Assembly: GCA_028281405.1 (NCBI GenBank)
Contig: JANQKA010000100.1
Location: forward strand, 1-39,358
Reading direction: 5' to 3'
Source of the DNA: Hasllibacter sp.
Lineage (GTDB): Bacteria > Pseudomonadota > Alphaproteobacteria > Rhodobacterales > Rhodobacteraceae
Length of the DNA stretch: 39,358 nucleotides
The notes below the pieces were generated by a model, which made no database searches, was not told where the DNA came from, and worked only from the letters and a program-made list of their open reading frames with translations. Numbering within the stretch: position 1 is the stretch's first letter; the number at the start of each line of letters is the position of its first letter. Shown one piece after another: positions 71 to 8,535 of this stretch. The position numbers and the translations under genes are program-made.

Positions 71-750
<680 letters not shown>

Positions 751-1194
751 AAGACCGTTGCCGGTCTGACCTTGACGTTCGAACCTCTGCACATCGCCCC
801 GGCCGTCCGGCCGGGGCAGTCATCTGTCTGATGCGTGCTCCGGTCTCCATTGGAAGCCGAAACCTCGCTCAAACAGTGAAGCTGACACCCTCATCATCGC
901 CCGAAGGCTAGAGGGCCGACATACAGGGGAACGATCCGTCGAAGGACCGAACCGCCCGCACATCTCTTCAGAAACCAGCGATCTCAAACAGCAAGGGCAA
1001 CAAGACAGCGGAGCGCACCCGACCAGCGGGGCGCACCATCGCCGTCACCCGATATTTCCATGAACCGCTCCGGCCAGCGTCGCCGCAGACCGATTCGGTG
1101 TCCCCGGGATCGAACCCATCGGACAGACGGTGATTACGATTTCGGTTCGGGCGCCCGCAAGACGATTTCCGGAGGAATTCGAACTTTTTTGGGG

Positions 1195-1256
1195 ATATCG
1201 CCGCGAACCACAATATATTGCGTGTTGGAATCCTGAAATATCCATATACCGCCCCG
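1195..1256 (-). promoter_or_regulatory. AT-rich island upstream of the 16S gene; candidate rrn promoter region
   Basis: Local AT-rich stretch (ATATCGCCGCGAACCACAATATATTGCG...GAAATATCCATATACC) in very GC-rich surroundings, upstream of the minus-strand 16S; no unambiguous -35/-10 pair assigned. Confidence 0.3.
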
Positions 1257-1320
1257 TGTTCACGGCTTTGTTACCAAGAGACGCCGATTCCGCCGCCGCG
1301 CCGGGGTGTTTTTCAGGGTC

Positions 1321-3081
1321 CGAATCACGTCGAATCGGGCCGAATCACCACATGCGAAGTGGAGGCGCCGACCATGTTGACCGTCACGCGAATCGGTGAG
1401 TTCGTGACCTTCGACGCCGGTTTCCGGCGAAACGAATCACCCGGCGCGCCGCGAATCGGGGCTTCGAACCGCGACCGCGGGCACGGGATTCAGGGCGTCC
1501 GTGCAGCCGCCCCGTGCCAGGAGGCGATCCGAATCACAGCGCGGCTTGGTTGACGGGGCGGTTGGCTTACGCCCGAATCGACACTTGCGCGCCAGCCGCT
1601 CCTTCGACGTGCGAACCGCGGCGAAACGAATCACGCGGGGAAGCCGCCGAATCGGGCGAATGTCCCATGGAACGGGGATTCCAAGGTCTTCTCCGCGCAT
1701 TCGCGGGGCGGGCCGCGACGGAACGAATCACCCCGCGTGGCGAATCGGGTGTTCGGGCCGCCTCGCCTCAAAGTCCAATGCCCCCACATCCGGCGGGGCC
1801 CGATGACGACAATCCCTTGGAGCCCGGATGGCCCGGCGAATCAGTCAACCGCCGCCCTGAGCGCATTCTTCCGGCTTCCATCACTGTCGGTGACAAGTCG
1901 GCGGGCGGCCACCCGCGCGGCGACCGGGCCTTCGAGCCGCCACCGCACGAAACGCAAAGCCGCGGGGCACCCGCCATGATCCGGAAGCGCGGCCCGGATG
2001 AACCGGATCTACGGGCGCGTCCCGAGGCGGCGAATCGGTTGGCCGCCACCGAATCGGTCCATGCCTGCCGTGAATTGGCGATCGCTGCGAACGATGACGC
2101 GTTGACGGCGAATCGAATGCCCGGATCGGCCCAATCGAATTGGGAGACCTCGAGGCCCCCGTCAGGGAGGGCGGAATGGGATGGACCAATTCATCCGGAG
2201 GCGGCGGAACAACGAATCGGTTGGCCTCCGCCCGGGAACGGACCGGGTTGGGCCGACCAGCAGGAACCGGCATCCCGGCGAATCGGCCATGCCACGCCCG
2301 AATCGACACATTCGACGCCTTGGACGGCATGACCACCGCAGACGGGTTGTCCCGCGCGCGGCGAAACAGCCGCCCCCCTCCCGCATCGACGGTTCCAGGA
2401 GCTCCTTAACCCTCCACCGGGCGGAGCGCGACGGAGCGAATCTTCCCGCGCTCGGCAAACAATCGATTCGTCCATCGCCCCTCGGCGCGGAAGACTTGCG
2501 GGCTCCCGTCGGCTTCGGAAGGCGGTTCGATGAAACGAATCAGCGGCGAGTCGAATTGTCCGCGAATCGGTGACCACGGCCGAATCGCTCCCCGGCGTCC
2601 GAACCCGCTCGACGCGTCGACCGGCGGGGCGCACAACCAAGCACATTCCGGTGCCGCGAAGCGGGCGATTGGTCAGCGGCCGCTCAAAATGGAGGGATAC
2701 CAAGCGTTCCCGCCGCCCCGCCGGGCGACCCCGAATGCAATGGACGTCCGGCACGGCGGGAACCGGCGAATCGGCGGCACCATTCGAATACTCCCGACCC
2801 TCCGTCCCCTCCGATGGCGGGTCCGGCGGGTCCGCGCGCGCAACCCGCGAAGCCCGCGAATCGGTCGGCCCGCCGCGAATCCTATGATTCGGCCCGCCGA
2901 GGTCGGAACCGGAGGCTTCCCTTGCCTCCACGCTTCAAGCGGTCTCCGGAACGCCGCGGGCGGCAATCAACCGCCCGCGGCGCGGCGAATTGGACCCTTG
3001 GACGCGTCCCCTCCGAATGAAGCGCGTCCAAATTCCGATTCTTCAATCCTGGAGTGGGAGCGCGCGGATTGGCGCGAATCA
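1321..3081. repeat. Dispersed array of CGAATC(G/A) motifs (GANTC sites), mostly in one orientation, in a non-coding tract between msrQ and the rrn operon
   Basis: 25 hand-counted CGAATCR copies on the + strand, starting at 1321,1331,1341,1389,1433,1452,1530,1574,1627,1648,1724,1741,1837,2031,2050,2109,2213,2279,2299,2536,2563,2581,2767,2857,3075; opposite-orientation YGAKTCG at 1091,2464,2547,2885. Confidence 0.9.
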
Positions 3082-3146
3082 CCCCGCGCGACGGGAATCG
3101 GGTGAATCCATTGGCCGTGGTCCGCGAAATCCATCCGTGTCCGGAC

Positions 3147-3812
3147 TCACCCCCGGCGGGCCATCCCCGGGATGGACAACTTGCCCCAAAACACCCTGAG
3201 GCCAACCAAGGCAGCTATGACCGCCAAGTACACGACCGGTTCCAACTGCCACCCCTTCCTCACCATGACGAAGTGCGCGCCACCCAGGATCGCCACGAGG
3301 TAGGTGAATTTGTGCAGCCGCTGCCACCGGGCCGCCCCCAAACGACGAACCGCCTTGTCGCCGGAGGTCCACATCAACGGGATCAGAACCAAGAAGGCGA
3401 CCATGCCGATGGTGATGTAGGGACGTTTCACAATGTCCGTCCAGATCTCACCCCAGCGGAGCTGAATGTCGAGCACCAGCCATGTCAGAAGATGCGCCAC
3501 CACATAAAAAAACGCGAGATGACCCAGCGGGCGCCGCAAGCGGATCAGGTTCACGCCCACCCAGCGGCGCAACGGAGTCACGGTCAGAACCGCGATCAGA
3601 ATCCAAACCGCCCAAAGCCCGATCTGATGTTCGATCTTTTTCGCCGGGTCCGCGCCCAAGCCGCCGGTGATGCCCCTCCAGTAGATCCAAAGAATCGGAA
3701 TGGCCCCCAAAGGGTACAGCGACCACTTCGGCACCCGGCGCACCGCGGCGTTCACGCGGTCCGCGAGGCTCACGGGAGGAACTCCCGACATTCCGCCGCG
3801 ACCTTCGGACAC
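3147..3812 (-). CDS. msrQ: Protein-methionine-sulfoxide reductase heme-binding subunit MsrQ (YedZ family)
   Basis: Multi-TM ferric-reductase-like protein with HxxG/H motifs (HLAFFYVVAHLLTWL, RWQRLHKFTYLVAILGGAHF), directly downstream of msrP. Confidence 0.9.
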   Translation of the reverse strand: MSEGRGGMSGVPPVSLADRVNAAVRRVPKWSLYPLGAIPILWIYWRGITGGLGADPAKKIEHQIGLWAVWILIAVLTVTPLRRWVGVNLIRLRRPLGHLAFFYVVAHLLTWLVLDIQLRWGEIWTDIVKRPYITIGMVAFLVLIPLMWTSGDKAVRRLGAARWQRLHKFTYLVAILGGAHFVMVRKGWQLEPVVYLAVIAALVGLRVFWGKLSIPGMARRG

Positions 3813-3897: not shown

Positions 3898-4818
3898 TCA
3901 GAATTCCCTGGTCAGATCCATGCCGGCGTAGAGGGACGCCACCTCGTCCCCGTAGCCGTTGAACATCAGCGTCGGATGGCGTCGCGCGAATACGCCGTCG
4001 CCGATCCGACGTTCGGACGCCTGGCTCCAGCGCGGGTGGTCGACCAAGGGATTCACGTTGGAGTAGAACCCATACTCGCGCGGATTCTGCATGTTCCAGG
4101 AGTTGGGCGGCCGCTTCGAGGTCAGTTCGACCTTCACCACGGACTTGATCGACTTGAAGCCGTACTTCCACGGCACCACCAAGCGGATCGGGGCCCCGTT
4201 CTGGTTGCGCAGTTCCTCCCCGTAGATGCCGACCGACATCAGCGTCAGCGGGTGCATCGCCTCGTCCATGCGCAGCGCCTCGCGGTACGGCCAATCCAGA
4301 TAGCCGCGCGAGATGCCCTCCATCACGTCAGGCAATACCGCGGTCTCGAACGCCACATACTTGGCCGACGGTTGAACTCCCGCCATGTCCAGAAGCTGAT
4401 TCAGCTCAAATCCCACCCACGGAATCACCATGGCCCAGGCCTCGACGCAGCGGAACCGGTAAATCCGCTCTTCGAGATCCACGCGCCGGAGGATGTCCTC
4501 CAACCCGTAGGTGCCGGGTCTGTCCACGAGGCCCGCGATCTCCACCGACCACGGCACGGTCACCATGTCCTGCGCGTTGCGCGGCGGATCATCCTTGCCG
4601 ACGCCGAATTCATAGAAATTGCAGTAGGACGAGATGTCCTCGAGGGAAGTCGTCGCCAGCCCCGCCCCGTGGCTGGTCTTGGCGATGTCGCCAAGGGCGC
4701 GGGCCGAAGCCGGGCCGGCCATCACGCCGGCGGCGGCGCCAGCGATGATCTGGCGCCGATTGAGGAACGCCGCCTTCGGCGTTACATCGGAGTGCTTGAG
4801 TTCGGTCTTGAATGGCAT
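3898..4818 (-). CDS. msrP: Protein-methionine-sulfoxide reductase catalytic subunit MsrP (YedY, molybdopterin; Tat signal)
   Basis: N-terminal Tat-like LNRRQIIAGAAAG; YRFRCVEAWAMVIPWVGF and PIRLVVPWKYGFKSIKSV motifs typical of YedY. Confidence 0.93.
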   Translation of the reverse strand: MPFKTELKHSDVTPKAAFLNRRQIIAGAAAGVMAGPASARALGDIAKTSHGAGLATTSLEDISSYCNFYEFGVGKDDPPRNAQDMVTVPWSVEIAGLVDRPGTYGLEDILRRVDLEERIYRFRCVEAWAMVIPWVGFELNQLLDMAGVQPSAKYVAFETAVLPDVMEGISRGYLDWPYREALRMDEAMHPLTLMSVGIYGEELRNQNGAPIRLVVPWKYGFKSIKSVVKVELTSKRPPNSWNMQNPREYGFYSNVNPLVDHPRWSQASERRIGDGVFARRHPTLMFNGYGDEVASLYAGMDLTREF

Positions 4819-5925: not shown

Positions 5926-8535
5926 CTACGCCGCCAGTTCCGCCGAATATCCGTCCGAAGCCGGCTCCCGGCCGCCCACGATCAAACCGTCCTTTCCGGC
6001 GGTCACCGGAATCGACTCTCCGTCGAGCACGTCCCCCGCGAGGATCATTTCGGCCAATCGATTCTGCAGCGCCCTTTGGATGACCCGCTTGAGGGGACGC
6101 GCGCCGAATACCGGATCGTAGCCCTCGCCGGCGAGCCAGGACGTGGCGGAATCGTCGACTTCGAGCGAAATGCCTCGCCCCGCCAGCCGCCCGCGGAGGA
6201 GGGAGAGCTGGATTTCCACGATTCCGTCCATGTCGGACCTCGACAGGCGGTCGAAGATGATCGTCTCGTCGAGGCGGTTCAGGAACTCAGGCCGGAAGTG
6301 ACTCCGGACCGCCTCCATGACATCCCGCCGCGCCTCCGCGTCGTCGGCCCCCTCCGGCAGCCGCGACAGCGACTGCGAACCGAGGTTGGAGGTCAACACG
6401 ATGAGCGTCTGCTTGAAATCCACCGTCCGGCCCTGTCCATCTGTCAGCACCCCGTCGTCGAGGACCTGCAGCAGCACGTTGAACACGTCCGGATGCGCCT
6501 TCTCGACCTCGTCGAACAGTACGACCTGATAGGGACGGCGCCGCACGGCCTCGGTCAGCGCCCCGCCCTCGTCGTATCCCACGTAGCCCGGCGGCGCCCC
6601 GATCAACCGGGCGACCGAGTGCTTTTCCATGAATTCCGACATGTCGACCCGCGCCATCGCGCCGTCGTCGTCGAAGAGGTATTCGGCCAGGGCCTTCGTC
6701 AGTTCCGTCTTGCCGACGCCCGTCGGCCCGAGGAAAAGGAAGGATCCCAATGGGCGGTTCTCGTCCTGCAGCCCCGCCCGGGCCCGCCTCACGGCGTTCG
6801 ACACGGCCCGCACGGCCTCGTCCTGGCCGATCACCCGGCGACCGAGCTCCTCCTCCATCCTGAGAAGCTTCTCGCGTTCGCCCTCCAGCATTTTCGACGT
6901 CGGAATGCCGGTCCATCTCTCGACGACCTGCGCGATCTGTTCCGATCCCACGGCCTCCCCGACCATCAGGTCGCTGTCCGCCTGGTCGGCCTCGGCGATC
7001 CCGCGCTCGAGATCGGGAATCACGCCGTAGGACAGCTCGCCGGCCCTGCCGAGATCGCCGACGCGCTTCGCGGCCTCGAGTTCGACCCGCGCCGCGTCCA
7101 GCCGGGCCTTCAACCCGCGGGAGGACTCGAGCTTGTCCCGCTCGGACTGCCACTTCTCGGTCAGTTCGGCGGACTGCCCCTGCAGATCGGACAGTTCCTT
7201 TTCCAACTTGCCCAACCGATCCTTCGAAGCGGCGTCGTCCTCTTTCTTGAGGGCCTCCGCCTCGATCTGAAGCTGCAGGATGTGCCGGTCGAGTTGGTCC
7301 AATTCCTCCGGCTTGGAATCCACCTCCATGCGCAGGCGCGACGCCGCCTCGTCCATGAGGTCGATCGCCTTGTCCGGCAGGAAACGGTCCGTGATGTAAC
7401 GGTTCGACAACTGCGACGCCGCGACCAGGGCGCCGTCCGATATCCGGACCCCGTGGTGCATCTCGTACTTTTCCTTGAGGCCCCGCAGGATGGACACGGT
7501 GTCCTCCACCGTGGGCTCGTCCACAAGCACGGGTTGGAACCGCCGGGCGAGGGCGGCGTCTTTTTCGACGTGCTTGCGGTACTCGTCCAGCGTCGTCGCT
7601 CCCACGCAGTGCAGTTCGCCGCGCGCCAGCGCGGGCTTGATGAGATTCGCCGCGTCCATCGCCCCGTCGGTCTTTCCCGCGCCGACCAGCGTGTGCATCT
7701 CGTCGATGAACAGGATGATCTCGCCCGCCGCCGCCTCGATTTCCTTGAGGATGGCCTTCAGCCGCTCCTCGAATTCCCCGCGGTATTTCGCGCCCGCGAT
7801 CAACGCGCCCATGTCCAGGGCCATCAGCTTCTTGTCGCGGAGGGACTCCGGCACGTCGCCGTTCACGATCCGCAACGCCAATCCCTCGGCGATCGCGGTC
7901 TTTCCGACACCCGGATCCCCGATCAGCACCGGGTTGTTCTTCGTCCGCCGGCTCAACACCTGCATCGCGCGGCGGATTTCCTCGTCGCGTCCAATGATCG
8001 GATCGATCTTGCCCACTTCGGCCGCCTCGGTCAGGTCGCGCGCGTACTTCTTGAGCGCGTCGTAGCCATCCTCGGCGTTCTCGGTGTCGGCCGTCCGTCC
8101 CTTGCGGACGGAGTCGATGGCGGCCACGAGGTTCTTCGTGGTGACCGCCCCGGCCTCCAGCGCCGCGCTGGCGCCCGATTTCACCGAGGCCAGGGCGGCG
8201 AGAACGCGATCCTCCGGGATGAACGCGTCCCCCGCGTCCTTCGCCAACTTCCCGGCCTCGTCCAACACGCGGACCGCGACCGGGTCGAAGTAGACCCGCC
8301 CCGCGTCGCCCGTGACCTTCGGCGATTTGGCCAACGCGGCCTCCGCGGCCTCAGCCACCCGCGCCGGCGCTCCGCCCGCCCGCTTGATGAGATCCGCGGC
8401 GGATCCCCGCTCGTCGTCGAGCAGCGCCTTCAGCAGGTGTTCGGGCAGCACCCTTTGGTGGTTCTCCCGCACGGCGATGGTCTGGGCGGCCTGAAGGAAG
8501 CCGCGGGACCGTTCGGTGAATTTTTCCATGTTCAT
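5926..8535 (-). CDS. clpB: ATP-dependent chaperone ClpB
   Basis: Clp N domain ([18 protein letters not shown]), two Walker A motifs ([31 protein letters not shown]), middle domain; start set at MNMEKF. Confidence 0.97.

Follow-up and report, generated by a model that had tools for sequence, protein, structure and literature searches.

The stretch of DNA analyzed here (the window) is a 39,358-nucleotide contig, C273, of a Hasllibacter genome that is assembled as 872 contigs with a total of 4.89 Mb. The window begins in a ribosomal RNA (rrn) operon, and positions 1 to 749 on the minus strand are the 5' part of a 16S rRNA gene at the contig end (Rfam RF00177, 646 bits). Within positions 1 to 70, about 60-70 bases of sense 16S are followed by a different antisense 16S; this fold-back join, at the rRNA end of the contig, is probably a chimera that arose in assembly. 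The rrn leader (750 to 1130, minus strand) has blocks that are kept in the spacer alignment with L004, L013, L015, L017 and L031, and it is preceded by a probable rrn promoter (1131 to 1160, minus strand) with the −35 element TTGCGG (1160-1155) and the −10 element TAATCA (1136-1131). A consensus scan did not pick up this promoter, which was assigned by reading the alignment of the relatives, where it aligns with TTGCGGG...TAAATA. The upstream border of the spacer is msrQ (3147 to 3773, minus strand), which is an open reading frame with a gene call and with tblastn matches beside msrP in relatives. The msrP gene itself (3898 to 4818, minus strand) encodes a protein ~57-67% identical to Rhodobacteraceae MsrP, and these MsrP neighbors place the genome in that family.

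The array between msrQ and the rrn promoter

A gene finder based on a codon model calls no gene between the 16S gene and msrQ, which agrees with the first-pass annotation in treating this tract as noncoding, and a protein-coding origin was rejected. The 25 copies of CGAATCR that were reported on the plus strand between 1321 and 3081 are all there in a direct count. They form an array that precedes the rrn promoter, as had been claimed, and because the 16S gene and the msrQ-msrP pair are all on the minus strand, nearly all of its sites appear as YGATTCG when they are read the way the 16S gene is transcribed. Three of the four reported copies in the opposite orientation were found by word count, namely plus-strand YGATTCG at 1091-1097 (downstream of the probable rrn promoter), 2464-2470 and 2885-2891. 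The fourth (2547-2553, plus strand) reads CGAGTCG, which fits YGAKTCG with K = G and not CGAATCR. The strand bias is 25:3 (binomial p = 3e-5).

The counts are far above those expected by chance. Positions 750-3146 contain 25 copies on the plus strand and three on the minus strand versus ~1.8 and ~1.5 in dinucleotide shuffles, and 500 such shuffles of 1091-3081 gave means of 1.7 and 1.4, respectively, with a maximum of 7. The density in the tract, 11.7 per kb, is far above the 2.06 per kb measured elsewhere in the noncoding DNA of this genome (Poisson p ~7e-13).

The sites have little else in common. The only preferences in the flanks of the 28 sites beyond the 7-mer are a G after CGAATCG and a C after CGAATCA. 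A 97-bp period is present in 1336-1820, where four units that start with CGAATCAC (1433 to 1820, minus strand; starts at 1433, 1530, 1627 and 1724) have exact 97-bp spacing and are otherwise strongly diverged; most of the tract beyond has no period. TRF reported no tandem array within the tract, Rfam found no RNA family in it, and a 10.5-bp helical phasing of the sites was looked for and not seen. An origin from a mobile element or from a plasmid or phage was considered and rejected, as blastn against either collection gave no match to the tract and the genome contains it only once.

The msrP-msrQ-rrn gene order is kept in relatives, and the rrn promoter and leader align. However, msrQ and the 16S gene are 606-916 bp apart in the five relatives that have both ends of the spacer, versus 2397 bp here. 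The array is missing from these shorter spacers, and YGATTCG occurs neither in the relatives' spacers nor in 12.3 kb of tails from loci that are cut off in the spacer. What the relatives have instead is other GANTC, at 7.37 per kb versus 1.61 per kb in the remaining noncoding DNA of the same loci (4.6-fold), a comparison figure that may be low, the gene caller being crude. For example, the Lentibacter locus (L013) has up to 13 GANTC in 200 bp, mostly TGAATCG, at 7522-7784 between msrQ and the rrn promoter, and clusters occur at this position also in L002, L008, L015, L021, L028 and L036. About half of the relatives' loci have such a cluster and the others have none. The position of a GANTC cluster recurs, but the exact word does not. 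By synteny, the extra spacer DNA in this genome is the array itself, at a position that, judging from the relatives, held GANTC clusters before. The cluster in the relatives suggests that DNA methylation is linked to rRNA transcription; no description of such a link was found in the literature searched.

The word in the genome and in the family

GcrA is described as reading the methyl mark that CcrM sets, and gcrA and ccrM are reported to be retained or lost as a pair (PMC3885167). In Caulobacter, activation by GcrA has been linked to an extended motif, TGATTCG / YGAKTCK, a motif that was not found in Brevundimonas in the same study (PMC7987155). The word of the array fits this motif, and the GcrA context recognized by the first-pass annotation is thus supported.

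Outside the tract, only scattered single copies had been noticed in the first-pass annotation. The array is real, but CGAATCR is present in 4252 copies genome-wide (2060 + 2192; 869 per Mb) and other clusters exist, so that the array upstream of rrn is a local maximum within a pattern that extends over the genome. The genome-wide density ranks first among 298 family genomes; the next four are G014, G225, G045 and G217 (567, 384, 306 and 301 per Mb), and the median of 42 compared genomes with CcrM is 100 per Mb. Same-strand triples (three sites, 3-33 bp apart) occur 50 times in this genome versus 0 in the control, and 0 times in five of the next-densest genomes.

The following statistics come from ~463 kb of contigs that were chosen independently of motif clusters, with contigs <3 kb read as N and coding DNA called by a home-made codon model. 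CGAATCR is present at 2.06 per kb in noncoding DNA versus 0.61 per kb in genes, and the top over-represented noncoding 7-mers are GTGATTC, GGTGATT and TGATTCG. Each site has 0.57 neighbors within 250 bp, whereas 91 control 7-mers have a mean of 0.27 and a maximum of 0.44. Neighbors at this distance share their orientation in a ratio of 170:77, counted with the window left out; for the degenerate word, this coherence of orientation is high yet inside the control range, while CGAATCA alone ranks first. Few of the sites lie within 150 bp before a gene start, i.e., they are not promoter-proximal, and their strand has no net orientation relative to genes. The form GGTGATTCG has 54 noncoding copies versus 3 expected (ratio 19) and is at 1.9 of expectation in coding DNA, on 14 copies. 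There is no conserved context beyond GG-TGATTCG, which argues that the word itself is kept and not a longer repeat.

Some other features of this genome can be mentioned here. Contig C5 (L083, 3060-5580) has a tandem array of ~10 units of ~184 bp with the palindrome TGATTCGCGCGACGCGAATCA plus CGAATCGGT and CCGATTCG; it adjoins a HipB/HipA-like pair that is preceded by repeated GGATAAAA/TTTTATCC words. The tract has only short, chance-level matches to this array, and homology between the two was rejected. The crude coding density of the genome is only ~72%.

The GANTC contexts display a pattern of avoidance and release. Observed/expected ratios in noncoding DNA are, for TGATTCG, 0.15 in relatives (whose context counts are small, 2 seen and 14 expected, and whose CcrM is presumed), 1.03 in the CcrM-lacking G014 and G217 combined and 3.42 in this genome; for CGATTCG, they are 0.13, 1.13 and 1.60, respectively. 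The order is reversed for TGAATCG (2.87, 0.99 and 0.66) and CGAGTCG (2.96, 0.95 and 0.64). Of all 32 GANTC contexts, TGATTCG is the most enriched in the noncoding DNA of this genome, and in relatives it belongs to those that are avoided most strongly. Thus, the GcrA-type word is avoided in relatives in which CcrM is presumed, neutral in genomes without CcrM and enriched here.

CcrM and GcrA

The organism appears to have lost its GANTC-methylating enzyme. The C-terminal RAMA domain of CcrM is absent from this genome as well as from G014, G225, G045, G217, G125, G243 and G173 (G173 being only 80% complete), and it is present in every one of the 28 genomes of ordinary density that were tested, as well as in 14 further genomes picked for higher density. 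The five densest genomes for CGAATCR all lack it, and its absence tracks density over 50 genomes (p = 3e-6), which are phylogenetically non-independent and were selected partly by density. The genome has many N6/N4-methylase genes and none is CcrM: the two most similar score 124 and 107 bits versus a CcrM cut-off of 830, and they are 28-30% identical to CcrM, whereas the CcrMs of the family are ~73% identical to one another. In addition, coding DNA avoids GANTC less strongly than it does in relatives (0.65 versus 0.25). At 95.8% completeness, the assembly may lack CcrM by chance; the call made here combines this assembly with the relaxed avoidance, while the other seven genomes were judged by the RAMA domain. 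CcrM methylation of the array, as proposed in the first-pass annotation, therefore finds no support; of the expected gene pair, gcrA is present and ccrM is absent. Indeed, all eight of these Rhodobacteraceae have kept GcrA with an undetectable CcrM domain, and G014, G225, G045, G217, G125 and G243 differ in this from the published pairing (PMC3885167).

The GcrA of this genome is itself unusual. PF07750 has three matches inside one 919-codon frame (L134, 4966-7671, minus strand), and the protein has 902 amino acids and a second helix-turn-helix, whereas GcrAs of the family have ~180-250 amino acids. The layout is HTH1 (~1-49), HTH2 (~110-158), a ~650-amino acid linker and a conserved, sigma-binding C-terminus, and both ends align to solved GcrA. 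The GcrA described in the literature, of 173 amino acids, has a DNA-binding domain (1-45), a linker and a sigma2-binding part (108-173), and it brings RNA polymerase to methylated promoters (PMC7403470). The linker is of low complexity, first acidic and then Lys/Ala-rich, with an internal ~56-amino acid repeat. The NCBI GcrA model NF050816 gives 134 bits, less than the 280 of its equivalog cut-off; the altered architecture is presumably the reason. HTH1 retains the segment TRNAVIGK.HRLGLSNR, and HTH2 has TRSSVMGKLNRLGLLKR. The same segment is altered in three of the CcrM-lacking relatives (H to Y in G014 and G225; N to S and H to R in G045) and canonical in a fourth, G217.

Two further ideas about GcrA were rejected. 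There is no YGATTCG upstream of gcrA, which argues against autoregulation through the word, and a long linker does not go with density across the family, as many genomes whose GcrA matches are split are of ordinary density. Other proteins of this genome (L146, 968-2575; L135, 2381-6483) have also been expanded by long stretches of low complexity or by repeats (e.g., of the RPEAARLE type), and so the long linker may reflect a general trend.

What the array might be

We tentatively favor, with somewhat less than even confidence, the explanation that the tract is a putative binding array for a sequence-specific protein, most likely the enlarged GcrA, working without CcrM methylation. The spacers of the relatives would imply an ancestral msrQ-rrn spacer in which methylatable GANTC sites were clustered and had contexts different from YGATTCG. 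We propose that YGATTCG was avoided everywhere at that stage because its methylated form recruits GcrA, sigma70 and RNA polymerase, and that loss of CcrM ended the avoidance. GcrA would have acquired the second helix-turn-helix and the linker while retaining its sigma-binding end, and YGATTCG, with GGTGATTCG as its best form, would have multiplied in noncoding DNA, partly through tandem duplication and most densely before rrn. Many sites and two DNA-binding domains might then make up for the lost methyl mark through avidity, and the array could hold sigma70-RNA polymerase near the rRNA promoter as a hub or reservoir. This suggests an epigenetic switch rebuilt without the epigenetic mark. Several results count against this explanation, namely the position of the sites away from promoters and their indifference to gene direction across the genome, the missing helical phasing and the lack of a site upstream of gcrA.

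The main rival is that the sites are decayed repeats without function, GANTC being tolerated after the loss of CcrM and the tract being the remnant of a ~97-bp tandem array in a repeat-rich genome of low coding density, where stretches that carried such words by accident were duplicated. The four exactly spaced units agree with this, as do minisatellites elsewhere that bear the word (C237, 21 bp; C362, 18 bp; C634, 21 bp; C5, ~184 bp), same-strand neighbors that are compatible with a tandem origin, intergenic DNA that averages 336 bp versus 176 bp in relatives and CcrM-lacking relatives that are denser in the word yet have no clusters. However, most of the tract outside ~1336-1820 is aperiodic. 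The strongest counter-arguments are that the flanks of the sites are unrelated both inside the tract and across contigs, so that duplication alone would need the erasure of everything except the word, and that a word avoided by relatives is enriched above neutrality, as plain release gives ~1 and not the ratios of 3.4 for TGATTCG and 19 for GGTGATTCG. We consider decayed repeats a rather unlikely explanation.

The sites might also serve another protein or process, such as a nucleoid-organizing or segregation factor, an orientation signal for DNA translocation or recombination, or an uptake word. Strand-coherent runs in long noncoding stretches, independent of gene starts, would suit such a role, as would the 68 copies of GGTGATTCG in the 463 kb sampled. 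DNA-uptake words usually occur at about one per kb and also inside genes, whereas in coding DNA TGATTCG is at 0.86 and CGATTCG at 0.54 of expectation, and so the joint coding and noncoding enrichment of an uptake sequence is not seen here. The specific avoidance of the word in relatives with CcrM points instead to the GcrA/CcrM pair, and we regard this second alternative as unlikely. A CcrM-methylated GcrA array, modified either by a CcrM that the assembly lacks or by some different methylase, is very improbable: gcrA is present, 4.2% of the genome is missing and N6/N4-methylase genes are many, but the RAMA domain is lacking, the best methylases are distant from CcrM and coding GANTC avoidance is relaxed as in other CcrM-lacking genomes.

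Returning to the GcrA array, its fullest version would be that, after the loss of CcrM, GcrA became independent of methylation, with two heads and a disordered linker of great length, that the arrays gather sigma70-RNA polymerase by the rRNA promoter in an avidity-based hub, and that the GANTC cluster upstream of rrn in the family is an undescribed control element. This whole chain is doubtful, and it is seen only once, since G014, G225, G217 and G045 have GcrAs of ordinary size and no clusters.

How does the array compare with known systems? Ribosomal RNA promoters can have upstream activator arrays, such as the FIS sites of Escherichia coli rrn. Like these, the array consists of repeated, here putative, protein sites upstream of an rrn promoter; unlike them, it has ~27 sites over ~1.8 kb that start ~200 bp upstream of the likely transcription start, it is unphased and it would bind a different protein. 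GANTC is enriched in the intergenic DNA of Alphaproteobacteria (PMC3973325) and rises near the origin of replication (PMC9836097). This genome likewise has a GANTC-containing word in excess in noncoding DNA, but the excess concerns one extended context that relatives avoid, and it is clustered and on a single strand. Finally, the GcrA/CcrM module of Caulobacter and other Alphaproteobacteria shares with this genome a GcrA with a canonical sigma-binding end and the word TGATTCG / YGAKTCK (PMC7987155). Here, however, CcrM was not found, dense arrays lie away from gene starts and GcrA has 902 amino acids and two helix-turn-helix domains versus 173 amino acids (PMC7403470). The GcrA word has been freed from avoidance in the CcrM-lacking genomes examined and has multiplied into arrays beside a rebuilt GcrA in one of them, and such genomes with GcrA and without CcrM allow a direct test of methylation-free GcrA and of why bacteria with CcrM avoid YGATTCG.
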